From NCBI GenBank assembly GCA_030040235.1, contig JASHUC010000040.1:1-36263 (forward strand): a stretch of DNA of 36,263 bases, given 5' to 3'. Positions 2,021 through 26,530 of the stretch are shown one piece after another. Below the pieces are notes generated by a model. The model was not told the origin of the DNA. It did no database searches and worked only from the letters and a program-made list of their open reading frames with translations. Within the stretch, counting starts at the first letter, position 1, and each line of letters opens with the position of its first letter. Source of the DNA: Gammaproteobacteria bacterium (lineage in GTDB: Bacteria > Pseudomonadota > Gammaproteobacteria > Steroidobacterales > Steroidobacteraceae). A program made the translations under genes and the position numbers.

Positions 2021-2284
2021 TCAGGTGGCTGAGCGCGCACTCCGGCGCTTACCGCTGCGACGTTCAACCGATGCAGCGCCGCTCGCGTCCGGCTCCCCTG
2101 CCGGGGACCACGGCCGCCCCGTACGCTGCTCGATGAACTCCCGAATCATACGTCGCACGACCTGCGAAGGAGTCAGGTCTTCTTCGTCACAGAGCCGCTC
2201 GAATACGGCCTTCTTGCGCGGATCGATGAGTATGGTCAGACGAGCGGTGCGCTCCTCCAACTTGGCCGCGGAGGAATATTTCAT
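2021..2284 (-). CDS. Ribbon-helix-helix (CopG/Arc-type) DNA-binding protein
   Basis: This encodes 87 residues. Residues 13-55 read as a ribbon-helix-helix fold: a basic strand (TARLTILID), a first helix (PRKKAVFERLCDEE), then LTPSQVVRRMIREFIEQR, where the turn and second helix carry the conserved hydrophobic pattern. The tail from residue 56 is charged and probably disordered. RHH proteins bind DNA as dimers that insert the strand into the major groove, often as antitoxins or autorepressors. No toxin gene is adjacent. It is divergent from the hyf operon, 99 bases away, and that AT-rich gap carries tandem AATAATC repeats, so it may regulate the operon (inference). No strong ribosome-binding site precedes the ATG. 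Confidence 0.75.
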   Translation of the reverse strand: MKYSSAAKLEERTARLTILIDPRKKAVFERLCDEEDLTPSQVVRRMIREFIEQRTGRPWSPAGEPDASGAASVERRSGKRRSARSAT

Positions 2285-2351: not shown

Positions 2352-2387
2352 ATGATTCGCGGCGCCGATCAGGTGCGAGAAAAGTGA
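2352..2387 (+). CDS. Possible 11-codon leader peptide coupled to hyfB
   Basis: An ATG at 2352, preceded by AAGGG at 2343-2347, opens an 11-residue frame (MIRGADQVREK). Its TGA at 2385-2387 overlaps the GTG start of hyfB at 2384 as GTGA. This is the same four-base overlap style used between the later genes of the operon. It could be a leader that couples ribosomes onto the GTG start, or it could be chance. No evidence of expression is available. Confidence 0.3.
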   Translation: MIRGADQVREK

Positions 2388-4417
2388 TCGGGTTTGAGGG
2401 CCCCGGCTACCTCAGCCGGTTGGCGGCCGAGGGCGTCGGGTTGTTGCTGGCGCTCGCGCTATTCGGGTTCTACGGTGCTGCCCGGCCACAGGGCTCCCGG
2501 TTCGTTTACGCCGGCTGCACGCTCGTCTGTGCGGCGCTCGCGTCCGTTGCGCTCGCGGCGCTGTTCAGCACCGGCGCCGGTACGCAATCGGTTCAGCTTC
2601 CGATCGGGCTGCCGCTCGGCCGCACGCTTCTCGGGCTCGACCCGCTCAGTGCCGCATTCATATTCGTCATCAACCTGGCCGCTGCCATCGTGAGCACCTA
2701 CGCCATCGGCCATGGCTCGCATGCACCCGAGCCACGGCGCGTCCTGCCGTATTACGCGGCCTTCATCGCCGCCATGAATCTGGTACTCATCGCGCAGGAT
2801 GCCTTCTCGTTCCTGGTCGGCTGGGAGCTCATGTCGCTCACCTCCTGGGCGCTCGTGGTGAGCGAGCACACCTCGGCCGAGAACCGGCGCGCCGGCAACG
2901 TTTACCTCATCATGGCCACGGGCGGCGCGTTCGCGCTGCTGCTCGCCTTCGGGCTAATGGCCGGTCCTGAGGGCCAATATGCGTTCGAGGCCATCCGGCG
3001 CGCGCCCCTCCACGGTCTCGGACCCATCGTGCTGGTGCTTGCTCTGATCGGAGCCGGTTCCAAGGCGGGTTTGGTGCCGCTGCACGCCTGGTTGCCGCTC
3101 GCGCACCCTGCGGCCCCGAGTCATGTCTCGGCGCTCATGAGTGGGATCATGACGAAGGTCGCCGTCTACGGATTCATCCGCATCGTCTTCGACCTGGCCG
3201 GTCCGCCCGATTGGTGGTGGAGCGTTCCGGTGCTGGTGATCGCGGGCATCACCGCCCTCCTCGGCGTCTTGTATGCGTTGATGGAACACGATTTGAAGCG
3301 TCTGCTCGCATACCACACCGTCGAGAACATCGGCATCATCTTCATCGGCCTGGGGCTGGCACTCGCGTTCCACGCGAGCGGCCTCGAGGTCGCCGCCGCT
3401 CTGGCGCTCACGGCGGCGATCTTTCACGTGTTCAATCATTCGCTCTTCAAGAGCCTGCTCTTCATGGGCGCCGGTGCCGTGCTCGTCGCGAGCGGCGAGC
3501 GGGACATGGAGCATCTGGGCGGGCTTATCCATCGGCTGCCCGTCACGGCGATCGCCTTTCTGGCCGGATGCATCGCGATCTCCGCCCTGCCACCCTTCAA
3601 CGGCTTCGTATCCGAGTGGCTGACCTTTCAGGCGATCCTGTTGAGTCCGCAGTTGCCTCATTGGGTACCGCGACTGGTGGTGCCGGCCGTCGGTGCGACG
3701 CTCGCCTGCGCAGCAGCGCTCGCAGCGGCGTGCTTCGTCAAGGCGTTCGGGATGACGTTCCTCGGCCGGTCCCGCTCCCCGGCAGCGGGGACCGCACGCG
3801 AGACGGACAGATGGTCGCGGACCGCCATGCTGTTGCTCGCACTGCTGTGTCTGCTCGCCGGCATCCTGCCGGGCTTCGTGGTCGATGCGCTCTCGTCCGT
3901 GACCCACTTGCTGGTCGGTGCCCGTCTCGCCCCGCAGGCCGCCCAGCCGTGGCTGCGCATCGTCCCCATCGATCCCGCACGCAGCGCGTACGACGGTGCA
4001 CTGGTGTTCTTCATGATTCTGGGCGGCGCCGCGGTGACGGCCTTCGTGGTGCGACGTGTGGCCGCGCACGCACTGCGCCGGTCCGCACCTTGGGACTGCG
4101 GCTTCCCGGATGCGAGCCCCGCCACGCAGTACACCGCGACGAGTTTCGCGCAGCCCATTCGGCGGGTGTTCGGCAGCGTCGCCTTTCGCGCGCGCGAGCA
4201 CGTCGCCATGGCGCGGCCCGCCGACACCGCTCCCAGCGTGCTGCGCGTCGAGCTCCACGACACTGTTTGGGAGGTGTTCTACGGTCCCATCATCCGCTTC
4301 GTTGAGCTGAGCGCCGAGCGCCTCAACCGACTGCAGTTCCTCACCATCCGCAAATACCTGACGATCGTGTTCGTCGCATTGATCGTGCTGCTGATCATCG
4401 TCGGGGCCTGGCGATGA
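2384..4417 (+). CDS. hyfB: HyfB-like proton-antiporter subunit (NuoL/M family)
   Basis: This 677-residue integral membrane protein belongs to the complex I antiporter-like family (proton_antipo_M). It opens with GTG. Signature features are a glutamate in a mid-membrane helix (GWELMSLTSW, near residue 148), the SKAGLVPLHAWLP loop near residue 228, a lysine in MSGIMTKVA near residue 254, and the DLKRLLAYHTVENIG stretch near residue 305. The last 100 residues form a cytosolic region before a final helix. This subunit should form one ion-pumping unit of the membrane arm. It is first in a six-gene operon and ends in a four-base ATGA overlap with hyfC. HyfB is the closest named family; the sodium versus proton preference cannot be read from sequence. 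Confidence 0.9.
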   Translation: MIGFEGPGYLSRLAAEGVGLLLALALFGFYGAARPQGSRFVYAGCTLVCAALASVALAALFSTGAGTQSVQLPIGLPLGRTLLGLDPLSAAFIFVINLAAAIVSTYAIGHGSHAPEPRRVLPYYAAFIAAMNLVLIAQDAFSFLVGWELMSLTSWALVVSEHTSAENRRAGNVYLIMATGGAFALLLAFGLMAGPEGQYAFEAIRRAPLHGLGPIVLVLALIGAGSKAGLVPLHAWLPLAHPAAPSHVSALMSGIMTKVAVYGFIRIVFDLAGPPDWWWSVPVLVIAGITALLGVLYALMEHDLKRLLAYHTVENIGIIFIGLGLALAFHASGLEVAAALALTAAIFHVFNHSLFKSLLFMGAGAVLVASGERDMEHLGGLIHRLPVTAIAFLAGCIAISALPPFNGFVSEWLTFQAILLSPQLPHWVPRLVVPAVGATLACAAALAAACFVKAFGMTFLGRSRSPAAGTARETDRWSRTAMLLLALLCLLAGILPGFVVDALSSVTHLLVGARLAPQAAQPWLRIVPIDPARSAYDGALVFFMILGGAAVTAFVVRRVAAHALRRSAPWDCGFPDASPATQYTATSFAQPIRRVFGSVAFRAREHVAMARPADTAPSVLRVELHDTVWEVFYGPIIRFVELSAERLNRLQFLTIRKYLTIVFVALIVLLIIVGAWR

Positions 4418-5367
4418 GCTTCGGCTGGCTCACCCAGCTCGCCCAGGCGGCGTTGGTGCTCGCACTCGCACCGCTTCTCTCCGGCGTGACCCGCAAGGTG
4501 CGCGCCCGGCTCTTGCGCCGCCAGGGTCCGAGGGTTCTGCAGCCCTATCGCGACTTGCTGAAACTCCTCCGCAAGGAGGCTGTCGTCGCCGAAAGCGCCT
4601 CATGGCTCTTTCGGGTCGCGCCCTACCTCATCTTCGGTGCCACCTGGGCGGCCGCCGCGTTGGTGCCGACCTTTGCCACGGGACTCCCGCTCAGTGCCGC
4701 GGCCGACCTCATCGTCATCGTCGCACTGCTCGGCACCGCGCGCTTTCTGCTCGCGCTCGCAGGCCTCGACGTTGGCACCAGCTTCGGCGGCATCGGCGCG
4801 AGCCGCGAGGTGCTCTTCGCCTCACTCGCCGAGCCCGCGATGCTGATGGCCGTGTTCACCCTGTCGCTGTTCGCCCGATCGACCGAGCTCTCCTCGATCT
4901 CCGCCTACATGCAGAGCGTCGGGGTCGGAATCAACATATCGCTGGCGCTCGCACTCGTGGCACTCACCATCGTCTCCGTTGCCGAGAACGGCCGTATTCC
5001 GGTCGACAACCCCGCGACGCACCTGGAGCTGACGATGGTGCATGAGGCCATGGTCCTCGAATACTCGGGGCGTCACCTGGCCGTGATCGAGCTGGCGGCG
5101 GCCCTGAAGCTACTCCTGTACCTGTCGCTGATCGCCTGCGTGTTCATACCCTGGGGCACCGCCATCGCCGGCGCCGGCTCGCTTTTCTATGCCGTCGGGT
5201 TCGCCGCCTACCTGCTCAAGCTCGCATTGCTCGCCTTCCTGCTGGTGGTCTTCGAGACGGCGATCGCCAAGATGCGCGTGTTTCGCGTGCCCGAATTTCT
5301 GGGAATCGCGCTGATGCTGGGGTTGCTCGGCACGATCCTCCTCTTCGTCTCCAGGGTTCCCCGATGA
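4414..5367 (+). CDS. hyfC: HyfC/HycD-like membrane subunit (NuoH family)
   Basis: This 317-residue protein has about eight membrane helices and belongs to the NuoH/HyfC/HycD family. That subunit connects the peripheral redox arm to the membrane pump arm. The diagnostic loop ENGRIPVDNP lies at residues 191-200 and is followed by THLELTMVHEAMVLEYSG, whose glutamates correspond to the conserved acidic loop in NuoH. The N-terminal cytosolic loop RRQGPRVLQPYRDLLKLLRKE is the usual contact region with the large and small redox subunits. It overlaps hyfB by ATGA at the start and hyfE by ATGA at the end, so translation of the three genes is probably coupled. Confidence 0.92.
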   Translation: MSFGWLTQLAQAALVLALAPLLSGVTRKVRARLLRRQGPRVLQPYRDLLKLLRKEAVVAESASWLFRVAPYLIFGATWAAAALVPTFATGLPLSAAADLIVIVALLGTARFLLALAGLDVGTSFGGIGASREVLFASLAEPAMLMAVFTLSLFARSTELSSISAYMQSVGVGINISLALALVALTIVSVAENGRIPVDNPATHLELTMVHEAMVLEYSGRHLAVIELAAALKLLLYLSLIACVFIPWGTAIAGAGSLFYAVGFAAYLLKLALLAFLLVVFETAIAKMRVFRVPEFLGIALMLGLLGTILLFVSRVPR

Positions 5368-6026
5368 GTCCGCTGGATAGTGACATCGCCCACCTGCTCG
5401 CTGGCTCCATGGTGCTGGTGAGCTTCATGCTCCTGTATCAGGACCGCATGTTTGCCCTCCTCAACGTGTTCGCGCTGCACGCGTGCGCACTCGCCTGCTC
5501 GGTGGCCTGGCAGGCTTACCTGCAGGCCGCACCGCACCTCTACATCACCGCGCTCATCGCCCTTCTGTTCAAGGGCGTGATCATTCCCGTGGCGTTGCGG
5601 CGGATCATCGTGCGCCTCGGAATCCATCGCGCCATCGAGCAGGTCGTCGGTATCGGGCCGACGATGTTGTTCGGCATCGCCCTCGTCGGATTATCGATCA
5701 TCGTCATGGTGCCGGTGACCCAGTCACAGGGAGCGTTCGTGCGCGAGGATCTGGCATTTGCGCTGTCCGTCGTGCTGCTCGGGTTCCTGATGATGGTCAC
5801 ACGGCGCAATGCGGTGAGTCAGGTGATCGGGTTCATGTCGCTCGAGAACGGGCTGGTGCTCGCTGCGACCGGTGCGCGCGGCATGCCGCTCGTCGTCGAG
5901 ATCACCGTCGGCTTCTCGGTCCTGATCGCCTTCATCGTCATCGGCATCTTCCTGTTCCGCATCCGTGAGCGCTTCGACACGGTCGACCTTCAGGCGCTCG
6001 ATATGTCGCGCGGGGAAGCGACGTGA
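5364..6026 (+). CDS. hyfE: HyfE-like membrane subunit (NuoK-like)
   Basis: This encodes 220 residues with about six to seven membrane helices. The C-terminal half matches the NuoK-like part of HyfE, with a buried glutamate in GFMSLENGLVL near residue 157 and another in LVVEITVGFS near residue 179, both typical proton-path residues. The protein should sit between the antiporter-like subunits in the membrane arm. It starts in an ATGA overlap with hyfC and ends in a GTGA overlap with hyfF. The same subunit is called HycP in some actinobacterial clusters. Confidence 0.88.
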   Translation: MSPLDSDIAHLLAGSMVLVSFMLLYQDRMFALLNVFALHACALACSVAWQAYLQAAPHLYITALIALLFKGVIIPVALRRIIVRLGIHRAIEQVVGIGPTMLFGIALVGLSIIVMVPVTQSQGAFVREDLAFALSVVLLGFLMMVTRRNAVSQVIGFMSLENGLVLAATGARGMPLVVEITVGFSVLIAFIVIGIFLFRIRERFDTVDLQALDMSRGEAT

Positions 6027-7474
6027 CCGTCCCCGTCGGGCAACTGGCCCTCGGGGGACTCCTCGGCATCCCCGCGGTGGGTGCGCTCCTGCTCGCGACG
6101 ATTGCGCGCTACCGGATCGCCGCGATCGTGAACGTGGCGCTCTGCGCGCTGACGCTCGCTTGCGCGGCGGCACTCTACGCGTACCGCCCCGGGGCGTCTC
6201 TCTATCTTCTGGTCGATGATGTGAATACCGTCTTCCTGGTCGTCGGTTCGCTCGTCGGATTCAGCACGAGCGTTTTCAGCGCGGGCTACATCGCCCACGA
6301 GCTCGAGACGGGGAGGCTCAAGCCGCATGATGTGCGCTTCTATCACGCCATGTATCAGCTGCTGATGTTCGGGCTCAATCTCGCACTGGTCTCCAACAAC
6401 ATCGGCCTGATGTGGGTCGCGATCGAGCTGGCGACCCTCACGACGGTCGTGATGGTCGGGATGTACCGTACTAACGAGGCGCTCGAGGCAGCCTGGAAAT
6501 ACTTCATTCTGGCCTCGGTCGGCATCGCTCTGGCGCTCTTCGGTACGATTCTGGTGTATCTCGCGGCGCAGGAGCGGCTGGGTCAGGGGGTCGTCGCGAT
6601 GGCCTGGGACCGCCTCGCGGTGAGCTCAGGCAGCTTCGATCCGTCGCTGCTCAATCTGGCGTTCGTCTTTCTGCTGCTCGGCTACGGCACGAAGGTGGGC
6701 TTGGTTCCGGTGCATGCGTGGCTGCCTGATGCGCATGCCGAGGGCCCCACGCCCATCTCGGCCGTGCTGTCGGGGCTCCTGCTCAACGTAGCGCTCTTCG
6801 CACTGCTCCGGTTCAAGCTCATCATGGCCGGCAACCCGCACGTGCTCTCCCCCGGGCCGATGATGATCACCATGGGGATGATCTCGCTCGCGTTCGCGGG
6901 CTTCATGATCTTCAGGCGCCGGGACATCAAGCGTCTGTTTGCGTACTCGTCGATCGAGCACATGGGCATCATGACGCTCGCCTTCGGCCTCGGTGGCCCG
7001 CTCGCAAGCTTCGCGGGCCTACTGCAGATGACCATGCACAGCCTGACGAAGTCCGCCATCTTCTTCGGCGTCGGCTACACCTCGCAGCTCGAGGGCACGC
7101 AGCGCATCGCCGACATCCGCGGCCTCACGCGCAGCGCGCCGCTCCTCGGAGGCCTGCTGGTGGTCGCGGTGCTTGCTATCGCTGGACTCCCTCCCTTCGG
7201 GATATTCACCAGCGAATTTTTGCTGGTGACCTCCACCTTTGCACGCTCGCCGTGGCTCGCAGTTCTCCTGGTGATCGGGCTCCTGATCGCATTCAGCGCC
7301 ATGATCCTGCGGCTGCATGGTCTTGCCTTCGGCGCGACCGATCGGCGGCACTCGCTGCCGGCGTGGCGCCTGGCACCGATCGCGCTACATCTGGCACTCG
7401 TGACGGTGGCCGGGGTGTACTTGCCGGGCGCCGTGGTCAGCTGGTTCCGACACGTGGCCGGGCAGTTGGGGTAG
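6023..7474 (+). CDS. hyfF: HyfF-like proton-antiporter subunit (NuoN/M family)
   Basis: This second antiporter-like subunit has 483 residues, a GTG start overlapping hyfE as GTGA, and about 13-14 membrane helices. Conserved features are the helix glutamate in VAIELATLTT near residue 135, the loop YGTKVGLVPVHAWLPDAHAEGPTP near residue 222, and DIKRLFAYSSIEHMG near residue 302. The helix that carries lysine in HyfB (MTKVA) reads LLLNVAL here, with Asn in that position, a pattern I associate with HyfF rather than HyfB/NuoM proteins. Together with HyfB it gives the complex two potential ion-pumping modules. It ends three bases before the next gene. Confidence 0.9.
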   Translation: MTVPVGQLALGGLLGIPAVGALLLATIARYRIAAIVNVALCALTLACAAALYAYRPGASLYLLVDDVNTVFLVVGSLVGFSTSVFSAGYIAHELETGRLKPHDVRFYHAMYQLLMFGLNLALVSNNIGLMWVAIELATLTTVVMVGMYRTNEALEAAWKYFILASVGIALALFGTILVYLAAQERLGQGVVAMAWDRLAVSSGSFDPSLLNLAFVFLLLGYGTKVGLVPVHAWLPDAHAEGPTPISAVLSGLLLNVALFALLRFKLIMAGNPHVLSPGPMMITMGMISLAFAGFMIFRRRDIKRLFAYSSIEHMGIMTLAFGLGGPLASFAGLLQMTMHSLTKSAIFFGVGYTSQLEGTQRIADIRGLTRSAPLLGGLLVVAVLAIAGLPPFGIFTSEFLLVTSTFARSPWLAVLLVIGLLIAFSAMILRLHGLAFGATDRRHSLPAWRLAPIALHLALVTVAGVYLPGAVVSWFRHVAGQLG

Positions 7475-7477
7475 CCG

Positions 7478-8989
7478 GTGCTCAAGGCCCTATTCGGCAA
7501 CCATTCCGCCGTTCCCACACATCGTGGATGGCCTCTGGTCATCGCCGATCCCGACTCGTGGCGCCGCCTCGGCGAGGCGCTGCGCGAAGGCAAGCTCGAT
7601 CTGCTCGCGCTGTGGGGCGATGCCGACACCGTAACCTGTGCGCTCTACGAGCCTTCCACGCGGCAAGTGCTGAGCGCACGGCTGCCCGTGCGCGCCGGGA
7701 GGGTTCCCTCACTCGCGCAGTTCCATGCCCCCGCATCGCGTCTGGAACGGACGGTGGCCGATCTGTTTGGAATCGAGATCGTGGGACTGCCCGATGCAAG
7801 GCCTTGGCTCGATCACGGCCGCTGGCCGCAGCGTCGACCGCTCGCCGCGGTCTCGGGGCCTCCCGGCGCCCCGCCGGCCTACACGTTTCTGCCGGCGGTC
7901 GGACCGCATCTGCATCAGATTCCGGTCGGTCCGGTTCATGCCGGGACCATCGAACCCGGACACTTTCGCTTGACTGCAAGCGGCGAGACGGTGGTACGAC
8001 TCGAGGAGCGGCTCGGCTACACCCATAAGGGCATCGAGTGGCTGCTCCGCGCAAAGTCCCTGGACGATGCCGCGCGCATCGCGGCCCGCGCCTGCGGCGA
8101 TAGCACGGTCGGCTATTCGTTTGCCTTCGCGCGCGCCGTGGAAGCAGCTCTGCAGATCGACATCCCCCCACGCGCGGAGTGGCTGCGGGCCATCATGGCG
8201 GAGCTCGAGCGCCTCGCCAACCACCTCGGGGATGTCGGTGCGATCTGCAACGACGCGGCCTTCTCGATGATGCACGCGGAGTGCGGGATCCTTCGCGAGC
8301 ACGCGCTGCGCGCCTGCGCCACGGCGTTCGGTCACAGGCTGATGATGGACTGCATCGTCCCCGGTGGGGTCGCCGTCGATCTGGAACCCGCCGGCCTACA
8401 GGCCATCCTCGCACTCACCCGGCGCCTGCAGCGCGAATTCCCGGAGCTGGTCGAGCTCTACGAGAACACGGCCTCGCTTCAGGACCGAACCGTGGGTTCC
8501 GGCAGCGTCTCGGTCGCTCTCGCGGCGCAGTTCGCCGCCCCCGGCTACGTCGGCCGGGCCTCCGGGCGTGCATTCGATGTGCGCACCCATCTGCCCTACC
8601 CGCCGTACGACGCCGCGCCGATCGAGCTCGTCACGCTCAGCGAGGGGGACGTCGACGCACGGGTACGCGTGCGGATCCACGAGATCGAGCGCAGTCGTAC
8701 CTGGCTCGAAGCGGCCCTCGCAAGGCTGCCGCTGGGGCCCGTGCGTGTGCCGCACGAGATTGCACCGGTGACCGCCGCGGAGGGTGCGGCGCTGGTCGAG
8801 GGGTTCCGCGGCGACATTCTCGCAGCCGTGCGCATCGGTCCCGGGCCGCGCATCGAGCGCTGCTACCTGCGCGATCCGTCCTGGCTCCAGTGGCCGTTGC
8901 TCGAGGTCGCGATCGAGGGGAACATCGTTGCGGACTTTCCCCTGTGCAACAAGTCCTTCAACTGCGCCTACTCGGGCCACGATCTGTAG
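7478..8989 (+). CDS. hyfG: HyfG/HycE-like large subunit (NuoC-NuoD fusion) with degenerate [NiFe] site
   Basis: This 503-residue protein starts with GTG. Residues 1-110 resemble the NuoC (30 kDa) domain (ERTVADLFGIE, LPDARPWL). Residues 145-503 are the NuoD/[NiFe]-hydrogenase large-subunit domain (VGPVHAGTIEPGHFR, LGYTHKGIEWL, LERLANHLGD). Hydrogenases need RxCGxCxxxH near the start and DPCxxC near the end. Here the first motif is RACGDSTVGY, with Cys206 kept, the second Cys replaced by Ser209, and His by Tyr. The C-terminal motif is FNCAYS, with Cys496 kept and the second Cys replaced by Ser499. The protein ends directly after GHDL, so the maturation-cleaved tail of true hydrogenases is absent or minimal. 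It is therefore probably not a hydrogenase but an Ehr-type complex I relative. The substrate is unknown. Confidence 0.88.
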   Translation: MLKALFGNHSAVPTHRGWPLVIADPDSWRRLGEALREGKLDLLALWGDADTVTCALYEPSTRQVLSARLPVRAGRVPSLAQFHAPASRLERTVADLFGIEIVGLPDARPWLDHGRWPQRRPLAAVSGPPGAPPAYTFLPAVGPHLHQIPVGPVHAGTIEPGHFRLTASGETVVRLEERLGYTHKGIEWLLRAKSLDDAARIAARACGDSTVGYSFAFARAVEAALQIDIPPRAEWLRAIMAELERLANHLGDVGAICNDAAFSMMHAECGILREHALRACATAFGHRLMMDCIVPGGVAVDLEPAGLQAILALTRRLQREFPELVELYENTASLQDRTVGSGSVSVALAAQFAAPGYVGRASGRAFDVRTHLPYPPYDAAPIELVTLSEGDVDARVRVRIHEIERSRTWLEAALARLPLGPVRVPHEIAPVTAAEGAALVEGFRGDILAAVRIGPGPRIERCYLRDPSWLQWPLLEVAIEGNIVADFPLCNKSFNCAYSGHDL

Positions 8990-8991
8990 CC

Positions 8992-9519
8992 ATGCGCCGG
9001 CGCTTGATCAAAAACCTGCTCCGCTCACCCTGTACCGAGCCCGCGCTCCCGCAGCCCGCGGCACTCGAGGAAGCTGGCGCTGCCGTGCGCGGCGCCATCG
9101 CCCAACGCCTCGGCCGCAGCCTCGCGATCCGCGAGGTCGACAGCGGCTCGTGCAACGGCTGCGAGCTCGAGATCCACGCACTGAGCAATGCGTTCTACGA
9201 TATCGAGCGATTCGGCATTCGCTTCGTGGCCTCGCCGCGCCACGCCGATGTGCTGTTGGTCACCGGTCCCGTCGCGCTCAACATGCGCGAAGCGCTCGAG
9301 CGCACCTATCAGGCCACCCCCGCGCCGAAGTGGGTCGTGGCCGTGGGCGACTGCGCGACGGGCTGCGGCGTCTTCGCCGACAGTTACGCCTGCCTCGGCG
9401 CGGTCGGCAAGGTGATCCCGGTGGACCTAGTGATCCGGGGCTGCCCACCCACGCCGACTGACCTGCTGCAGGGATTGCGCTGGCTCCTCGAGGGACCCGC
9501 GCTAGTCCCGCCGCGTTGA
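8992..9519 (+). CDS. hyfI: HyfI-like small subunit (NuoB family, one [4Fe-4S] cluster)
   Basis: The start is the ATG at 8992, two bases after the hyfG stop. A longer in-frame extension upstream only overlaps hyfG in another frame and is not real. The 175-residue product is of the NuoB/HyfI family. Four cysteines for the N2-type [4Fe-4S] cluster are all present: Cys54 and Cys57 (SCNGCE), Cys121 (GDCATGCG) and Cys151 (RGCPPTP). The small subunit normally passes electrons from a ferredoxin-like subunit to the large subunit. No HyfA/HyfH-type ferredoxin follows, so the electron partner is unidentified. It is the last gene of the operon and overlaps the convergent methyltransferase gene by 18 bases. 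Confidence 0.92.
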   Translation: MRRRLIKNLLRSPCTEPALPQPAALEEAGAAVRGAIAQRLGRSLAIREVDSGSCNGCELEIHALSNAFYDIERFGIRFVASPRHADVLLVTGPVALNMREALERTYQATPAPKWVVAVGDCATGCGVFADSYACLGAVGKVIPVDLVIRGCPPTPTDLLQGLRWLLEGPALVPPR

Positions 9520-14795: not shown

Positions 14796-15605
14796 ATGAA
14801 GAGGATTCGACTTCTGGGCGCCACCGCGCTGATGGTGCTGGGTGGGCTGCTCGCGCTGCCGCGTCTCGCGCTCGCACTGCCGGTGCCCGATACGCTCTCG
14901 ACCTCCCAGGGCGGAGATCTGCTCATTCAGCCGGTGCATCACGCCTCGCTGATGCTGAGCTGGAACGGCAAGCGCGTGCTGGTGGACCCCGCGCCCCTCG
15001 GCCGCGACGTCAACGCCGCCATCGGGGAGTTCAAAGTGCTCTCGCCCCCGGACGTGATCCTCATCACGCATATCCATGGGGACCATTTCAGCGTGCCGGT
15101 GCTGCAGGCGGTCGTCGGGCCGAACACCACGATCCTCGCCCCGCAGAACGTCTACGATGCGATGCCCGCGGACCTGAAGGCCAAGACGCACGTGCTCACC
15201 AACGGGGAGCGCACCACCGTGGATGAGATCCCGATCGAGGCAGTGGCCATGTACAACACCACCGCCGCACGCGCGCACTTTCATCCGAAGGGCGCGGGCA
15301 ACGGCTACATCCTCACCCTCGGCGGCAAGCGCGTGTACGTCGCCGGGGATACCGAGGAGGCTCCGGCGCTCGCGCATCTGCGCCACATCTACGTCGCCTT
15401 CATTCCGATGAATTTGCCCTACACCCAGACGGTGCAGGCGGCGGCCAAGTGGGTGAGAGACTTCCGCCCGCAGTACGTGTATCCGTACCATTACCGCAAT
15501 ATGACGGGCACCTTCGCCGACCTGCAGCAGTTCAAGAAGCTGGTCGGGCACGCCAGCCACGTCGAGGAGCGCGCCTGGTACCCGAACGCTCAGAGTACCG
15601 GATGA
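14796..15605 (+). CDS. Exported metallo-beta-lactamase-fold hydrolase (UlaG/UPF0173-like)
   Basis: The start at 14796 follows a perfect AAGGAGG and begins a signal peptide of about 27 residues ending in LALA, giving 269 residues. Upstream in-frame codons overlap the previous gene and are rejected. Zinc ligands are visible: THIHGDH near residue 91, AHFHPKG near 165, VAGDTE near 185, and PYHYRN near 231. The short arrangement with HxHxDH, a late Asp and a final His is that of the UlaG/UPF0173 branch rather than class B beta-lactamases. The substrate is unknown. It follows the BlaR1-like gene by 85 bases on the same strand and could be part of its output. Confidence 0.88.
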   Translation: MKRIRLLGATALMVLGGLLALPRLALALPVPDTLSTSQGGDLLIQPVHHASLMLSWNGKRVLVDPAPLGRDVNAAIGEFKVLSPPDVILITHIHGDHFSVPVLQAVVGPNTTILAPQNVYDAMPADLKAKTHVLTNGERTTVDEIPIEAVAMYNTTAARAHFHPKGAGNGYILTLGGKRVYVAGDTEEAPALAHLRHIYVAFIPMNLPYTQTVQAAAKWVRDFRPQYVYPYHYRNMTGTFADLQQFKKLVGHASHVEERAWYPNAQSTG

Positions 15606-17245
15606 GCGATCTCGACTCGGCGCCACTCGGGGCTGGATGCGAGTTTCAGGAACCCTGAAAGATCCGCGAGCTGCTCGATCTCGGAGGCCATGACGGCCTG
15701 CTCGATCGTGTGATGCTCGGAGCGGGTGCGGGTTGCACGCGCGGCGCTGCCAAATCCCAGGGGACGGCTGTAGGAGATCTGCTCGCGAACGATCTCGCGC
15801 TGGCCGATGAGGCGCGATGCGAACTCTGCGGTCCCGCCGCGCTCGCTCGCCGAGCAGCGCAGGATGAGCGTGTTTCCGCAATTCTCGACGATGGTCTGCG
15901 CCTCGGCATCGCCGTAGGTTCCGCGAACCTGGGCAATGCTCTGAAACCCGAGGACACATCGGCCCCCGAACTTGCGCAGCCGCGCGAGCGCATCCTTGAG
16001 ACCATCGATGCTCCCGAGCGCATCGAGCTCATCCACGATGAACCAAAGCGGCCGGTCAGCGTCCTCTCCGCTCATCGCCTCGAATATCGCCAGGCGCATC
16101 CACGTGCTCACCAGATACTTGAGCGCCGCGATCTCGGGGGCTCGATAGGGCAGAAACAGCACCCCCCTTCCCTTTTGGATCCACGCTCGCACGGAGACCA
16201 CAGCTGCGCTCCGCTGTCGAGCCAGGTGCTCGATCGCGGTCAGATGGACGCTGGCGATGGAGCGCACGGATTCGAAGAACTTGAGGTTCTCCTCGCCGAG
16301 AAACGGCGCTGCCGGAGTGGATGCGAGAAGCGCGCGCAGCTCCGTCACGGGGGCCGTGAGCAGCAGACGGTAGAGCCGTCCGAGGTCGTGCTCGCCGACC
16401 TCGTGCAGCTGCCTCAAGACCGAGGTGAGAAAGGTCCGGCCGTAGTGACGCCAGTTGCGGTCCGGGTCGTCATAGTCCGCGATCAAGGAGCGGGCGAGCT
16501 GATCGGCATCGTGGGGCTCCACGATCTCCCCGAACAGATCCCAGCGCGCCGCTTGTGGATGAAAGGGATTGAGGATCACATCTCCGCGCGCCGCATCGTG
16601 GAAGGCCTTGAGGTAGCCCCCATCCGGATCGGCGATCACGGCGCGATCGCCCCGGGCGAGTGCGCCGCGCAGCAACTCGGCGATGGCCGTGCTCTTGCCG
16701 GTGCCCGTCGTGCCGATGAGCTTGAAATGCTTGCTCTCGTCGGCGGGTGGGATCGGGTGTCCCGCGAAGGCGAGGGCCGCTCGATCGGCCCGCTCACCGG
16801 CGCGGGTGATCGCAGCGTCCACGAGCCTCGCGCCGCGTCGCACGGCGACCTGAGGGGCGGCGCGAGGGGCAAGGAGGCCTGCGAGGGTACCGGCCGCGAG
16901 CATGAAGCCCACCCCGAGAAGAAAGACCAAGCCGGGTGGAATCGCTGCGAACAGCTCAGCACTCGACTCGCGGATCACCGTCCAGAGAAGAAGCGCGGCC
17001 AGTGCTACGATGAAAGCCCCGAGCGGCAGACGGCGCCAGATCGCGGCGCGCGGCTCGCCACGCCACGCGAGACCCGCAAACAGCCCGAGCGCCGCGGTAG
17101 CGTAGGCGCAAAGCAACCCCGACCAGCCGTGATCGAGTGCGCTCAGCACTTGAGGCCTCGTTGGTTCTTCTTTCCGCCGCAGTCTGCCGCCTCGGAGTTC
17201 CCTTGTCCATGGGCGAATCATCCCGAGATCCGGAGGGTAATCCAT
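15590..17245 (-). CDS. TraD/VirD4-like type IV coupling ATPase (orphan)
   Basis: This encodes about 551 residues from ATG 17245. A GGAGGA abuts that codon too closely, so ATG 17221 is an alternative. N-terminal membrane helices (about residues 42-63, 74-90 and 102-126) are followed by a P-loop ATPase: Walker A GTTGTGKS at about 178-185, Walker B LWFIVDELDALGS near 405, and a LRKFGGRCVLGFQS stretch typical of the TraD/TrwB family. Coupling proteins are hexameric pumps that bring DNA-relaxase complexes to a type IV secretion channel. No relaxase, T4SS, integrase or transfer origin is seen here, and both neighbours are metabolic-type genes. It may be a remnant of an integrated element or a domesticated motor. 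The 3' end overlaps the MBL-fold gene by 16 bases. Confidence 0.83.
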   Translation of the reverse strand: MDYPPDLGMIRPWTRELRGGRLRRKEEPTRPQVLSALDHGWSGLLCAYATAALGLFAGLAWRGEPRAAIWRRLPLGAFIVALAALLLWTVIRESSAELFAAIPPGLVFLLGVGFMLAAGTLAGLLAPRAAPQVAVRRGARLVDAAITRAGERADRAALAFAGHPIPPADESKHFKLIGTTGTGKSTAIAELLRGALARGDRAVIADPDGGYLKAFHDAARGDVILNPFHPQAARWDLFGEIVEPHDADQLARSLIADYDDPDRNWRHYGRTFLTSVLRQLHEVGEHDLGRLYRLLLTAPVTELRALLASTPAAPFLGEENLKFFESVRSIASVHLTAIEHLARQRSAAVVSVRAWIQKGRGVLFLPYRAPEIAALKYLVSTWMRLAIFEAMSGEDADRPLWFIVDELDALGSIDGLKDALARLRKFGGRCVLGFQSIAQVRGTYGDAEAQTIVENCGNTLILRCSASERGGTAEFASRLIGQREIVREQISYSRPLGFGSAARATRTRSEHHTIEQAVMASEIEQLADLSGFLKLASSPEWRRVEIAHPVL

Positions 17246-17253
17246 TCCTCCGG

Positions 17254-17835
17254 TCACCGACCCGACGCTCCGCGCGAAGCGGCGAGCCGCTCGATGTTCG
17301 CCGAGCTCTCCTCGGTCTCGGCCCGCAGCCAGCGCCGGACGATCCACGGACCAATGAGCGGGGGGACCCGGAAAGCGGGCTCGAGCTCTGCGCTCACCGA
17401 GAGCTCCGTCCGGCCACCCGCCTCGCGAAACAACCAGCGGGCTCGCCCGGCGCGAAGATCGCCCTTGGGAAGCACCGTCGCCAGGACCTCACCTCCGTCG
17501 GATCTGCGCACGAAGGTCATCTCCTGGGTCTCGTGGATCGAGCGACAGTAAAAGAGCACGCAGGCGCGAATCTCCGTGTAGAGCTCGAGGGGCTCGGCGC
17601 GCGGCCGGCGCGTGATCTCGACCCGGCGTACGTCGGTATTGATCGCGCGGAGATTGTCGAGGTCCGCAAAGACCGCGTAGGCCGCCGGCGCGCGCGCATC
17701 GAGCTCGGCATGGAGCTCGATCAGGTAGTGGTCCCCCACTTTGCGCACCGTCAGATCCTCGATCGTGGCGGCACTTGCGCTGGTGACGACGCCAACGAGC
17801 GCCGCGCCGATCACGGCGGCGAACCGGCACCGCAT
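17254..17835 (-). CDS. Exported SRPBCC/START-like protein
   Basis: This encodes 193 residues from ATG 17835, beginning a signal peptide (hydrophobic core FAAVIGAALVGVVTSASA). A TTG at 17871 overlapping the aldo/keto reductase stop is an alternative start. The mature part reads as a START/polyketide cyclase-like fold: the strand VGDHYLIELHAELDA, the helix PAAYAVFADLDNLRAI, and a C-terminal helix near the end containing LIGPWIVRRWLRAETEESSANIERL. Such folds bind lipids or hydrophobic ligands. The periplasmic site suggests ligand binding or membrane-lipid handling, but no substrate can be named. It lies between the reductase and the coupling ATPase on the same strand, 32 and 8 bases away. Confidence 0.72.
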   Translation of the reverse strand: MRCRFAAVIGAALVGVVTSASAATIEDLTVRKVGDHYLIELHAELDARAPAAYAVFADLDNLRAINTDVRRVEITRRPRAEPLELYTEIRACVLFYCRSIHETQEMTFVRRSDGGEVLATVLPKGDLRAGRARWLFREAGGRTELSVSAELEPAFRVPPLIGPWIVRRWLRAETEESSANIERLAASRGASGR

Positions 17836-23599: not shown

Positions 23600-26425
23600 T
23601 CAATGGCGCTGCTTCTGCAGCTCATCGAGTGTGCGCTTCAAGGCCTCGAGCTTCTGCCCGGCCTCCCCGAGCTTGCCCGCGGCGGTGAGCTGCTCGTAGT
23701 CGGACAGGTCGCGGGCAGCCGCCGAGATCAAACCCTTCACATCGGCAGCGCCACCGGTGGCCGTCTCGCCTTGAGCAGCGGCCGGTGGTTGCGGCGCTGG
23801 GCTGGGAGACGCTTGAGCGCTGAGCGTCGAGGGCGCCCCGCCAAACAGCGCCGCCATGGCGGTCTGGAAATTCGGGCCGTACGCAAGCCGGTCCTGCACC
23901 GCGAGCACGACCAGGCGCAGCTCAGGCATCGGGCTGCGCTCGGCCTGCAGGTAGATGGGCTCGGCGTACAGGAGCGCGCGCCCGACCGGGATCACGATCA
24001 GGCTGCCGCGGCGCACGTGGGAGCCCTGTTGGTTCCAGAGCGTGAGCTGTCCGGAAAGCTGCGCGTTCTGGTCGATGCGTGCTTCGATCTGCAGCGGACC
24101 GTCCACGAGCCGCGTCTTCGGAAAATCGAAGACCATCGCCTGACCGTAGTGCGCTCCGTCACTGCGGCCGGCGATCCAACCGATGAGGTTGTTTCGGTTG
24201 GCGGGCGTGAACGGCAGGATTGCAATGAACTCCGGCTCGTGCTCTCCCGGCAGCGTCATGAGCACATAGTTCGGCTCCATCGCTTGCGCGCCCTCGTAGC
24301 CGGAGCCGAATCGGCTCGCAATGGTCCACAGATCCTCGCGGTTGTAGAACACGTCCGGGTCGGTCATGTGGTAGAGCGCGTAGACGGCCGCCTGGACGTT
24401 GAGCAGGAGCTCCGGATAGCGCACGTGCTCGCGCAGGTCCGCGGGCATTGCCGCGGCGTCTTTGAACAGCGCCGGGAACACGGCGCGATACGCGGCGATC
24501 ACGGGATCGGCCGCATCGAATACGTAGAAAGTCGTTGCTCCCGTGTAGGCGTCGATGACGATCTTGACGCTGTTGCGGATGTAGTTGAGCTCTCCGTCCT
24601 CGAGCTCGTAGCGTCGCGAGTAAGGATAGGTATCCGAAGTGGTGTACGCGTCCATCATCCAGTAGAGCTTGCCCGCGGGGCTCACCACGATGTAGGGGTC
24701 CGGATCGAACGTGAGAAACGGGGCGAGCTCCTGGACTCGGTCGCGGATGTTGCGGCGCATCAGGAGTCGGCTGTCGGCGCTCACATCATCGCTGAAGGGC
24801 AGCTTGGAGAGATCTCCGCGGTCGAAGGCGATCGCCACCCGGCGCAGGAATCCCCCGAGGCGGATGCCACCGGTCCCGGAGTAGGTGGTGAGATTGTTCG
24901 TCTCGCCCTGCGGATAGTTGAATTCCTTCTGCCGTGTTTCCACATAGACGTCGGTGTCGGTGAGCTCCCCGAAATAGATCTCGGGCCGCGTGACGGTGAC
25001 CCCCGGGATCGTGCTCTGCACGGGCATGTTGCTGAGGACGAGCGAAGGCAGGCCCTCGGGCGTGAACCCATTGACCGGATTCATCGTCAAGCCGTAGCCG
25101 TGCGTGTAGATGAGTTTCTCGTTGATCCAGTTACGACTGCTCGGCGGCAGCTTGTCCACGTTGAGCTCACGTGCGGCGAGCATCATCTGATGGATCTGTC
25201 CTGCGAACCGATAGCGGTCGATATCGATGTCGGGAAAGTCGTAGTAGGTACGAATCTCCTGGATCTGGCGCAGCGTGTCTTGCAGCGCCCGCCAGTCCCA
25301 CAGGCGGATGTTCTCGAGCGTCGTGCGATTGGCGAGCGGCTCGACCGCCTCCACGCCGGTATCGGCGGGAAAGGGCCGTGTCTGCACCCGGTCGAGGCCG
25401 AAGGCCCGGCGCGTCAGTGCGATGTTATGGACGATGAACGGCCGCTCGCGATCGAGCTGGTTGGGCCTCACGATGAAGGTTCCGACGTACCAGCTCGCGA
25501 GGTCGATGGCGAGGAAGCAAGCGATCGCAGGCACGACGGCTGCGATGAGCCAGCTCGGACGGGGAGCCGCCACCGCGCCGATGGCCGCGCCGGCCGCGCC
25601 CGCGAGCAGCGCGATCGAGACGGCCCAGAGCCCAGCGAGCGTGATATGCGCATCCGTGTACGTGACGCCGGCGAAGATGACATTGTCCTGAAAGAGCCGG
25701 TCGAAGCGGCTGAGGTACACCCGCGCGGCGATGAGCAGCAGCAGCGCCGCGACGGTAGCCGACAAAGCACGCCAGGATGCGACCGAACCCGTTGCAGGAC
25801 GGCGCACGACGAATATCCGCGCGCCGCTCGTCATGAGAACGAAGACGCCTGCGACGACGCACACGATCACGGCGAGCATCAGGAGCCACCCGGTGATGAG
25901 ATCCCAGGCGGGGAGCGTGAAGAGGTAAAAGCTGAGCGGCCTGCCGAAAATCGGGTCGGCTGCTCCGGTCTGTGGCGCGTACCACCAAAGCGCCAGGACG
26001 CTCCAGCGAGAGGCCATGCTCGCACCGGTGGCAACGCCGATCACGAGTGAAGCGATGAGTGCGATGAAATCCAGGATCGGCACGACGGGCACGTTGACGC
26101 TCTGCCGGTTGATGAGAATCATCCCATCGAGCAGCTCGCCGAGGTGGCCGGGCCGCAGCGCCCGGAACGCACCGTAGAGCGCCACGAACGTGAGCACTGC
26201 GAAAATCGCGAAGATGGCGATCTGCAGGTCGAGCCGCTTCCAGAAGACCGAGGCATACCCGAGCGACGCGAACCACAGGGACCCGACGTAATACGAAACG
26301 GTCGTCGAGAGGGCGTAAGCGATGATGATGAGCGCCACCACCGCCACGATGAGATTCGGCCGGCGCCTTCTTCGGGGGGCGCCCCGTGGGAAGAGCTTGG
26401 CCTCTTCGCGTGGGTCGCGGCTCAT
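23600..26425 (-). CDS. UPF0182 family large membrane protein
   Basis: This encodes 941 residues. The frame stays open upstream to 28126, but an AGAGGA site before ATG 26425 and the start of UPF0182 homology (a basic N-terminus, then a first helix NLIVAVVALIIIAYAL) fix the start. About seven membrane helices occupy the first 290 residues. The remaining 650 form a large soluble, presumably extracytoplasmic, domain with the family's aromatic-rich text (LWDWRALQDTLRQIQEIRTYYDF, MMDAYTTSDTYPYS, YNREDLWTIAS). A proline/alanine-rich linker and a C-terminal helix of charged heptads finish the protein. The family is conserved in several phyla but has no established function. It is divergent from an M61 peptidase gene, with about 105 bases between the starts. 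Confidence 0.9.
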   Translation of the reverse strand: MSRDPREEAKLFPRGAPRRRRRPNLIVAVVALIIIAYALSTTVSYYVGSLWFASLGYASVFWKRLDLQIAIFAIFAVLTFVALYGAFRALRPGHLGELLDGMILINRQSVNVPVVPILDFIALIASLVIGVATGASMASRWSVLALWWYAPQTGAADPIFGRPLSFYLFTLPAWDLITGWLLMLAVIVCVVAGVFVLMTSGARIFVVRRPATGSVASWRALSATVAALLLLIAARVYLSRFDRLFQDNVIFAGVTYTDAHITLAGLWAVSIALLAGAAGAAIGAVAAPRPSWLIAAVVPAIACFLAIDLASWYVGTFIVRPNQLDRERPFIVHNIALTRRAFGLDRVQTRPFPADTGVEAVEPLANRTTLENIRLWDWRALQDTLRQIQEIRTYYDFPDIDIDRYRFAGQIHQMMLAARELNVDKLPPSSRNWINEKLIYTHGYGLTMNPVNGFTPEGLPSLVLSNMPVQSTIPGVTVTRPEIYFGELTDTDVYVETRQKEFNYPQGETNNLTTYSGTGGIRLGGFLRRVAIAFDRGDLSKLPFSDDVSADSRLLMRRNIRDRVQELAPFLTFDPDPYIVVSPAGKLYWMMDAYTTSDTYPYSRRYELEDGELNYIRNSVKIVIDAYTGATTFYVFDAADPVIAAYRAVFPALFKDAAAMPADLREHVRYPELLLNVQAAVYALYHMTDPDVFYNREDLWTIASRFGSGYEGAQAMEPNYVLMTLPGEHEPEFIAILPFTPANRNNLIGWIAGRSDGAHYGQAMVFDFPKTRLVDGPLQIEARIDQNAQLSGQLTLWNQQGSHVRRGSLIVIPVGRALLYAEPIYLQAERSPMPELRLVVLAVQDRLAYGPNFQTAMAALFGGAPSTLSAQASPSPAPQPPAAAQGETATGGAADVKGLISAAARDLSDYEQLTAAGKLGEAGQKLEALKRTLDELQKQRH

Positions 26426-26494
26426 CGCCGTCCTCTTTATCGCGCGGGAATTCGCGACGATTGCTGAGGAATCGATTCTACGCCGTTGCGCGCT

Positions 26495-26500
26495 TACAAT
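26495..26500 (+). promoter_or_regulatory. Possible -10 element for the M61 peptidase gene
   Basis: TACAAT lies 30 bases before the TTG start in the 105-base gap shared with the divergent UPF0182 gene. No convincing -35 hexamer is seen at the proper distance, so this is a weak call. Confidence 0.28.
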
Positions 26501-26530
26501 TCCGCTTGTCAGATCCCCAAGAGGTGACCC

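Follow-up and report, generated by a model that had tools for sequence, protein, structure and literature searches.

A predicted Hyq/Ehr-type complex whose hydrogenase-like large subunit lacks the [NiFe] ligand pairs

Ehr complexes have been described as relatives of the group 4 hydrogenases whose large subunit is without the [NiFe] motifs and whose function is unknown (PMC10284858, PMC4378227, PMC6349859). Their genes were reported as six syntenic genes (PMC4378227), and similar complexes lacking CxxC motifs have been reported without use of the name Ehr (PMC12542776). The available parts of three other papers contained nothing on the Hyq/Ehr family (PMC10734462, PMC10839748, PMC3534657). In this study, a locus of this kind was analysed in the window, which is the whole stretch of 36,263 nucleotides of contig JASHUC010000040.1 (assembly GCA_030040235.1, a gammaproteobacterium of the Steroidobacteraceae). 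The operon HyfB-HyfC-HyfE-HyfF-HyfG-HyfI spans positions 2384–9519. Similar to Ehr, the window complex combines a large subunit without [NiFe] motifs with complex I-like membrane subunits. This likeness is drawn from published descriptions of Ehr, which concern Nitrospira, Sulfobacillus and lineages sibling to Cyanobacteria.

The hyqRBCEFGI operon of Azorhizobium caulinodans has the gene order B-C-E-F-G-I in common with the window operon (PMC2650096). Different from the A. caulinodans operon, which begins with hyqR, the window operon has a divergent ribbon-helix-helix (RHH) gene and no hyqR was found there. The hyq operon was located with a published primer in 1 of 149 genomes, where the primers Prox, B, C and Dist occurred in order. 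Its HyqG reads RVSGDSTVAY and NKSFNCSYAGHDL, with Cys258, Cys491 and Cys497 numbered as in PMC3357923. HyqG is 504 aa long and 54% identical to the window protein (269/502). Its three cysteines correspond to C257, C490 and C496 of the window protein, neither protein has a CxxC pair, and S207 and S498 of HyqG stand against C206 and A497. The loss of both CxxC motifs from HyqG of eight genera was reported in 2012, with the Ni,Fe site called 'uncertain, if not unlikely' (PMC3357923). Thus, that point is not new here.

Hydrogenase-4 and hydrogenase-3 of E. coli (HyfG, HycE; PMC9474812) share with the window complex the fold, the subunit types, the proton relay of the large subunit and the proximal cluster. 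Different from these enzymes, however, the window complex has no CxxC pairs and no C-terminal extension, canopy Asp529 is replaced by Asn495, and genes for HyfA/D/H, Hyp and the protease were not found near the operon (flanks of 81 loci). With complex I it shares the core quinone-module and pump subunits, i.e., NuoB/C/D/H/L/M. Canopy Asn248 of the window protein corresponds to N185 of Yarrowia complex I, and E. coli NuoCD has Ser there. Unlike complex I, the window complex has no NADH module, no NuoI and no quinone Tyr/His, and its NuoB-like subunit contains CxxC, not CC.

The large subunit and its two motifs are encoded as follows:

7478..8989, + strand: HyfG/HyqG-like large subunit, a NuoC-D fusion of 503 aa without [NiFe] ligands (PF00329, PF00374, PF00346; alignments)
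8093..8104, + strand: motif 1, codons C206-G-D-S209, aligned to HycE C241GIC244 (sequence, alignments)
8963..8977, + strand: motif 2, codons C496-A497-Y-S499-G500, aligned to HycE P530-C531-Y-S-C534 (alignments)

The frame is open over 503 aa, and the letters described in the initial annotation, namely CGDS (206–209), CAYS (496–499) and a Tyr for the histidine of motif 1 (Tyr213), are all present. The Pfam domains followed each other in the order Complex1_30kDa, NiFeSe_Hases and Complex1_49kDa, and HycE of E. coli formate hydrogenlyase was the best solved relative by sequence (phmmer, E = 3.1e-57). Motif 1 had been placed correctly, as CGDS aligned with C241-G-I-C244 and Tyr213 with His248 of HycE. 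Motif 2 had been read as a second ligand pair. The window tail SFNCAYSGHDL, which ends the protein without the C-terminal extension, aligned gaplessly with SLDPCYSCTDR of HycE in the phmmer alignment and in two MAFFT alignments, pairing Cys496 with Pro530, Ala497 with Cys531 (a nickel ligand), Ser499 with Ser533 and Gly500 with Cys534. The NuoCD tail SIDFVMSDVDR finished in the same column (MAFFT). The ungapped tail block of 24 residues scored 37 against HycE with 10 identities. When the block was shifted by one residue, the score was -17 or -40, and with a gap placed only before CAYS, the score of the final eight residues fell from 7 to 1, the gap cost not yet counted. Moreover, the distant member L118 has Pro in the 496 column, as hydrogenases do. 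Given the gap-free alignment to both HycE and NuoCD, the CAYS reading is shifted by one residue, and it is Ala497 and Gly500 that stand at the ligand positions. Three of the four [NiFe] ligands are therefore missing from the aligned sequence, with Cys206 the only cysteine at a ligand position, and the proposed symmetric loss of one cysteine per pair appeared because motif 2 was read one residue early.

Conservation was assessed in 197 relatives, comprising 119 protein matches (120 were listed, one being the window protein) and 78 of 80 genome loci, the 80 being the best of 578 confirmed relatives. The 197 rows were all distinct but not independent, as some loci and protein matches are almost the same gene. 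Loci L016 and L036 stood outside the 78 and read SGDS and FNCSYSG on inspection; L140 and L142 (27% identity) stood outside all counts. Position 206 was Ser in 183/197 relatives (108/119 protein matches and 75/78 loci) and Cys in the other 14, and positions 207, 208 and 209 were G, D and S in all 197. Position 497 was Ser in 184/197 and Ala in 13/197, position 500 was always Gly, and Cys496 was kept in 192/197. The usual state of the family is SGDS...FNCSYSGHDL. The suggestion of a conserved CxxS/CxxS subclass was rejected on this alignment, in which most relatives carry Ser at 206 and 497 and all carry Gly at 500.

In hydrogenases, columns 206 and 497 hold the leading cysteines of the two motifs. 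The 13 rows with A497 all had C206 and consisted of the 12 rows nearest the window and P0051, and the fourteenth C206 row, L067, carried S497. A tree of 122 rows was built by a quick method with the motif columns included and the root placed for drawing only. In this tree, the window's C206/A497 rows formed one clade of 14 (Shimodaira-Hasegawa-like approximate likelihood ratio test 100) nested among Ser-bearing rows. On the basis of this nesting, in a tree that includes the motif columns, Cys206 as a retained nickel ligand was rejected; the residue is predicted to be a derived Ser-to-Cys change paired with Ala497. The distant row L134, on a long branch, also had C206/A497, and L109 and L131 had A497 with S206, suggesting that exchanges at 206 and 497 happened more than once. 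The swap from Ser/Ser to Cys/Ala looks like a local repacking of an empty pocket, not a metal site.

The columns of the HycE ligands C241, C244, C531 and C534 are occupied by C/S206, S209, A/S497 and G500, respectively, and D208, N491, K492 and N495 were invariant or nearly so in the pocket. When the residue roles of HycE (PMC9474812) were mapped, relay residues E193, H284, R395 and E437 and canopy R478 corresponded to E159, H249, R360, E402 and R444 of the window protein, each conserved in 197/197 relatives. In 21 more distant members, E159 was found in 20/21 and the others in 21/21. Canopy D529 of HycE was replaced by N495 in 197/197 and 21/21, and S283 by N248 in 195/197. By this mapping, the family retains the proton path, loses the metal ligands and has Asn in place of the canopy Asp. 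D208 and K492 occurred together in 197/197, 20/20 and 20/20 rows of slightly overlapping sets, and 8/8 hydrogenases had I and G at these positions. This pair is a candidate signature of the rebuilt site; D208 and K492 could possibly form a salt bridge filling the metal cavity.

Among 299 genomes sampled from the phylum of L012, one close branch was found, with further members at 42–48% identity, and those read share the signature. The more distant Ehr members (L119–L134 and L143–L146) came mostly from genomes of ~1.5–2.9 Mb and often had His in the Tyr213 column; L127, L132 and L134 grouped apart in the tree. L118 (G054) had the proton loop FGGVEASSQFL, compared with HAGIIEPGHFR, and the tail FNPSHAGCDL, perhaps reflecting a further functional shift. 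L140 (G044; NAVDS, ILSTGVDL) and L142 (G300; NALDS, HLVTGVDL) had neither CxxC nor SGDS/SYSG and possibly represent yet another metal-free class. The six hydrogenase-type matches examined, L135–L139 and L141, kept CGIC, DPCYSCTDR and the extension.

The other genes of the operon and its divergent neighbour are:

2384..4417, + strand: HyfB/HyqB-like antiporter-type membrane subunit, NuoL-like, 677 aa (NF005086 hydrogenase 4 subunit B, 832 bits, over cut-off)
4414..5367, + strand: HyfC/HyqC-like membrane anchor, NuoH-like, 317 aa (PF00146)
5364..6026, + strand: HyfE/HyqE-like membrane subunit, 220 aa (NF008556 hydrogenase 4 membrane subunit, 76 bits, below the cut-off of 136; syntenic)
6023..7474, + strand: HyfF/HyqF-like antiporter-type membrane subunit, NuoM/N-like, 483 aa (NF005043 hydrogenase 4 subunit F, 747 bits, over cut-off)
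8986..9519, + strand: HyfI/HyqI-like small subunit, NuoB-like, 177 aa (NF005012, 124.6 bits, over cut-off; C56, C59, C123 and C153 for one [4Fe-4S])
2021..2284, - strand: RHH regulator, divergent, 87 aa (PF19839 RHH_9)

The genes B-C-E-F-G-I were found in order on one strand in 72 of 81 loci (the window and 80 others; tblastn). The remaining nine had partial sets. Nine loci also had their match within 2.4 kb of the start of the DNA examined, and we take these to be the same nine, truncated there. With E. coli queries at E 1e-5, the 81 loci gave no separate best match to HyfA, HyfD, HyfH, HyfJ, HycB/F/H/I, HypA-E or NuoA/E/F/G/I/J, and their flanks gave no match to the maturation protease HycI. 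In this search, up to 10 kb was covered on each side (2.4 kb upstream and 27 kb downstream in the window), and weaker matches overlapping better ones were dropped; HyfD and NuoL are excluded only as a third antiporter.

The four cluster cysteines of HyfI, C56, C59, C123 and C153, were conserved in 80/80, 80/80, 79/79 and 78/78 ungapped rows, respectively, and in 37/37, 37/37, 36/36 and 36/36 further loci of both branches, with the hydrogenase-type C-x-x-C spacing of HycG/HyfI. The pump residues E148, K227, K258, K305, K356 and E411 of HyfB were found in 69/69 rows each. In HyfF, K224 and E398 were conserved in 76/76 and E135 in 74/76 (2 gaps), and the position of NuoM K265 is Asn255, as in E. 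coli HyfF. The channel residues E132, E140, E191, E205, E211 and E216 of HyfC were conserved in 71/71 and R110 in 70/71 (1 gap). At positions 201 and 203 of HyfC, channel glutamates of hydrogenase and complex I are now Ala/Ser and an invariant His (71/71).

Genomes carrying the family were also surveyed. HypD was not found in 48/80 carrier genomes, NifH exceeded its cut-off in 36/80 (23/49 + 13/31), and PF00374 was matched in 20/49. Both HypD and NifH were found in 24 carriers, NifH only in 12, HypD only in 8 and neither in 36. Half of the 80, for which completeness is not stated, are titled metagenome-assembled genomes (MAGs); of the 40 others, 26 were without HypD and 16 without both HypD and NifH. 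In the window's clade, two genomes were represented, L005 with HypD and the MAG L004 without it. When the branches of the 299-genome sample were split by identity and the partial match G149 was left out, NifH was found in 6/19 genomes of the close branch and 4/38 of the second branch versus 36/299 overall, and NifH was rejected as an explanation of the family. The lack of HypD in 48/80 carriers, and of both HypD and NifH in 36/80, argues that the complex is not a [NiFe] enzyme and makes H2 unlikely as its general role. Judged from sequences and carrier genomes, a [NiFe] role appears to be excluded at the family level, and H2 recycling is unlikely to be what the family does in general.

The window protein is predicted to serve as the large subunit in a Hyq/Ehr complex of six subunits, which is minimal compared with its relatives complex I and hydrogenase-4. 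By sequence, this complex has no metal ligands, retains the cluster cysteines, the proton relay and most pump residues, and has no relay subunit in its operon. The Ehr-type assignment of the initial annotation, made on a group 4-related large subunit and antiporter-like membrane subunits, holds. So does its preference for selection over decay, with both the operon and the pocket residues preserved among the sampled relatives. The best overall explanation, to which we give a little less than an even chance, is a Hyq/Ehr complex with a metal-free pocket that may act as a redox-driven ion pump, not as a [NiFe] hydrogenase. A cytosolic electron carrier would dock directly on HyfI, because the operon encodes no NuoI/HyfH subunit to act as the usual relay. 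The single HyfI cluster would then exchange electrons with a small organic molecule in the emptied HyfG-HyfI-HyfC chamber, most likely a quinone as a first guess by architecture. Protonation at the Glu159 loop would be transmitted through the HyfC channel to the pump subunits HyfB and HyfF.

Several observations weigh against a redox-driven pump of this kind. HypD was found in 32/80 carrier genomes (19/49 + 13/31), the close relative L005 included. The structure model of the large subunit, used for fold only, is poor at the pocket, with a predicted local distance difference test score below 50 at 143–180, 334–340 and 479–503. The quinone-head residues of complex I are absent, Tyr273 and His224 of NuoCD being Gly207 and Ile158, respectively; we take the equivalents of these two residues in other species to be the quinone-head Tyr and His. 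The HycD path residues Tyr102, Glu199 and Glu201 correspond to Ala104, Ala/Ser201 and His203 of HyfC. Ten recurrent frames flanking the operon, some of which are probably shadow frames, included no conserved redox partner; they matched DUF4365, an ABC transporter, an AMP-binding enzyme, DUF1275, a sigma-54 activator and a NUDIX enzyme, and 4/10 had no match. Finally, hyq-dependent H2 uptake and evolution have been reported in vivo (PMC3357923, PMC2930871). These phenotypes are the strongest evidence against the pump and keep a Ni-free reaction with H2 under consideration. The genome with the hyq operon, identified as A. caulinodans, has one HypD, at 676.6 kb near the hup genes. In this genome PF00374 was matched only at 661–668 kb (E 1e-6) and PF02906, the [FeFe] hydrogenase domain, was not matched, Hmd not being searched. 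With hydrogenase domains confined to the hup region, another known hydrogenase is not an easy explanation of the H2 data.

In a redox-silent ion transporter, the peripheral arm would cap an antiporter-like membrane arm serving pH or ion homeostasis, and the H2 effects would be indirect. The loss of the [NiFe] ligands, the single remaining cluster, the kept pump residues and the absence of a relay subunit or partner gene near the operon are consistent with such a transporter. The strictly kept cluster cysteines and proton relay, however, are hard to explain without electron transfer, and we regard a transporter of this type as rather unlikely.

A Ni-free H2 enzyme, in which the [4Fe-4S] cluster and the rebuilt pocket oxidise and evolve H2 as claimed for the Hyq 'endo-hydrogenase', is less probable still. 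It draws on HyqG lacking the ligands, on the hydrogenase domains of A. caulinodans lying only near the hup genes, and on mutant H2 figures. At 20 µM O2, the wild type, hup deletion, hyq deletion and double mutant gave 12, 16, 175 and 540 pmol H2 per 10^9 cells per min, respectively, placing the double mutant 34-fold above the hup mutant; at <1 µM O2, the values were 7,100, 61,000, 2,600 and 14,000, and a nifK hup mutant with hyq still gave 56,600 (PMC3357923). In nodules, the values were 0.32 for the hup deletion, 0.36 for the hyq deletion and 27 for the double mutant, and H2 recycling was said to survive deletion of the whole hup/hyp operon (PMC2930871). The initial annotation had counted evidence for H2 production or use against its own proposal; such evidence is in print as in vivo genetics of Hyq, yet it conflicts with the lost ligands (PMC3357923, PMC2930871). 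The data come from one laboratory and, in the parts of the papers available, without a purified enzyme or a pure H2 assay, and the hyq deletion also removes hyqR. The remaining H2 of the double mutant was ascribed to an 'additional, uncharacterized H2 source' (PMC3357923), hyq nodules gave no extra H2 (0.36 vs 0.30), and 20% H2 did not relieve the poor growth of the hyq mutant (PMC2650096). Among the papers listed from 2012 on, no further one names hyq as a hydrogenase, and hyq and hydrogenase were listed together only for the three Hyq papers and one unrelated paper. The 36/80 carrier genomes without NifH and HypD also argue against this enzyme, and we know of no enzyme that activates H2 with such a pocket. 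In its boldest form, Hyq/Ehr would be an H2-active complex I free of Ni, with Ser, Asp, Lys and Asn replacing the ligands and no Hyp maturation, which we consider doubtful indeed. If true, it would be a fourth kind of hydrogenase, already in hundreds of bacterial genomes.

Very unlikely is catalysis as in MBS of Pyrococcus furiosus, with sulfur or a similar substrate reduced at the proximal [4Fe-4S] and the lost [NiFe] site just making room. MBS, a member of the complex I family, has also lost the [NiFe] site; it keeps two of the four cysteines (MbsL C85 and C385), which by mutants are not catalytic (PMC7684303). However, the MBS cluster has three Cys ligands in a motif three residues shorter, freeing one iron (PMC7684303), whereas HyfI of the window has all four. 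An MBS-type open cluster was rejected on these four cysteines with their hydrogenase-type CxxC spacing. MBS is also without the proton path that the window family conserves. MBS/MBX chains were not among the 50 matches listed in the structure comparison, which excludes nothing. Highly improbable is the defined metal site of two Cys and two Ser (C206, S209, C496 and S499) first proposed, whose letters are present and whose Cys496 is widely kept; Cys496 and Ser499 lie off the ligand positions, and C206 is derived, with Ser in most relatives. Pseudogene-like decay of hydrogenase-4, for which the lost ligands would speak, is practically out of the question and was rejected, as it is contradicted by open frames, complete operons in 72/81 loci and invariant pocket and relay residues.

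Regulation of the operon seems to vary. No match to hyqR, a 94-aa helix-turn-helix protein, was found at the window operon, and hyqR was present in 59/81 loci, mostly directly upstream of hyfB. RHH homologs were directly upstream of hyfB in L005, L007 and L010, three sister soil loci. The RHH gene at the hyqR position in these loci and the window would represent a regulator swap before the same operon, and the 87-aa RHH protein is possibly the operon regulator. Of 72 loci, 1 had a sigma-54 promoter pattern ahead of hyfB, which offers no hint that NifA controls the operon in general. Similarly strict patterns for sigma-54 and the NifA box also had no match in the A. caulinodans region, for which both have been published; the scan is insensitive, since it missed these published sites.

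Downstream of the operon, a TrwB/TraD-like coupling protein (15590-17347, - strand; 326 bits) is possibly a remnant of a mobile element. On the - strand, a 1508-aa UPF0182 frame (23600-28126) overlaps a peptidase M61 frame (26531-28465, + strand). The UPF0182 match covers only residues 593-1364, and the first start of the 1508-aa frame is thus probably too early. Elsewhere, the Hyq locus L076, from a MAG titled Phycisphaerales, nests within Competibacteraceae in the tree and was probably mis-binned or transferred.

That Ehr and HyqG lack the [NiFe] motifs has been published before, and the window protein itself is ordinary. The value of the comparison is that it joins Ehr, of 'function unknown', with Hyq, for which deletion mutants, a regulated promoter and H2 data exist. 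Any production or use of H2 by Hyq must take place without [NiFe]; if there is none, three Hyq papers need rereading. Now that the pocket, the relay and the cluster have been named, together with a tractable organism, a question of long standing becomes directly testable.
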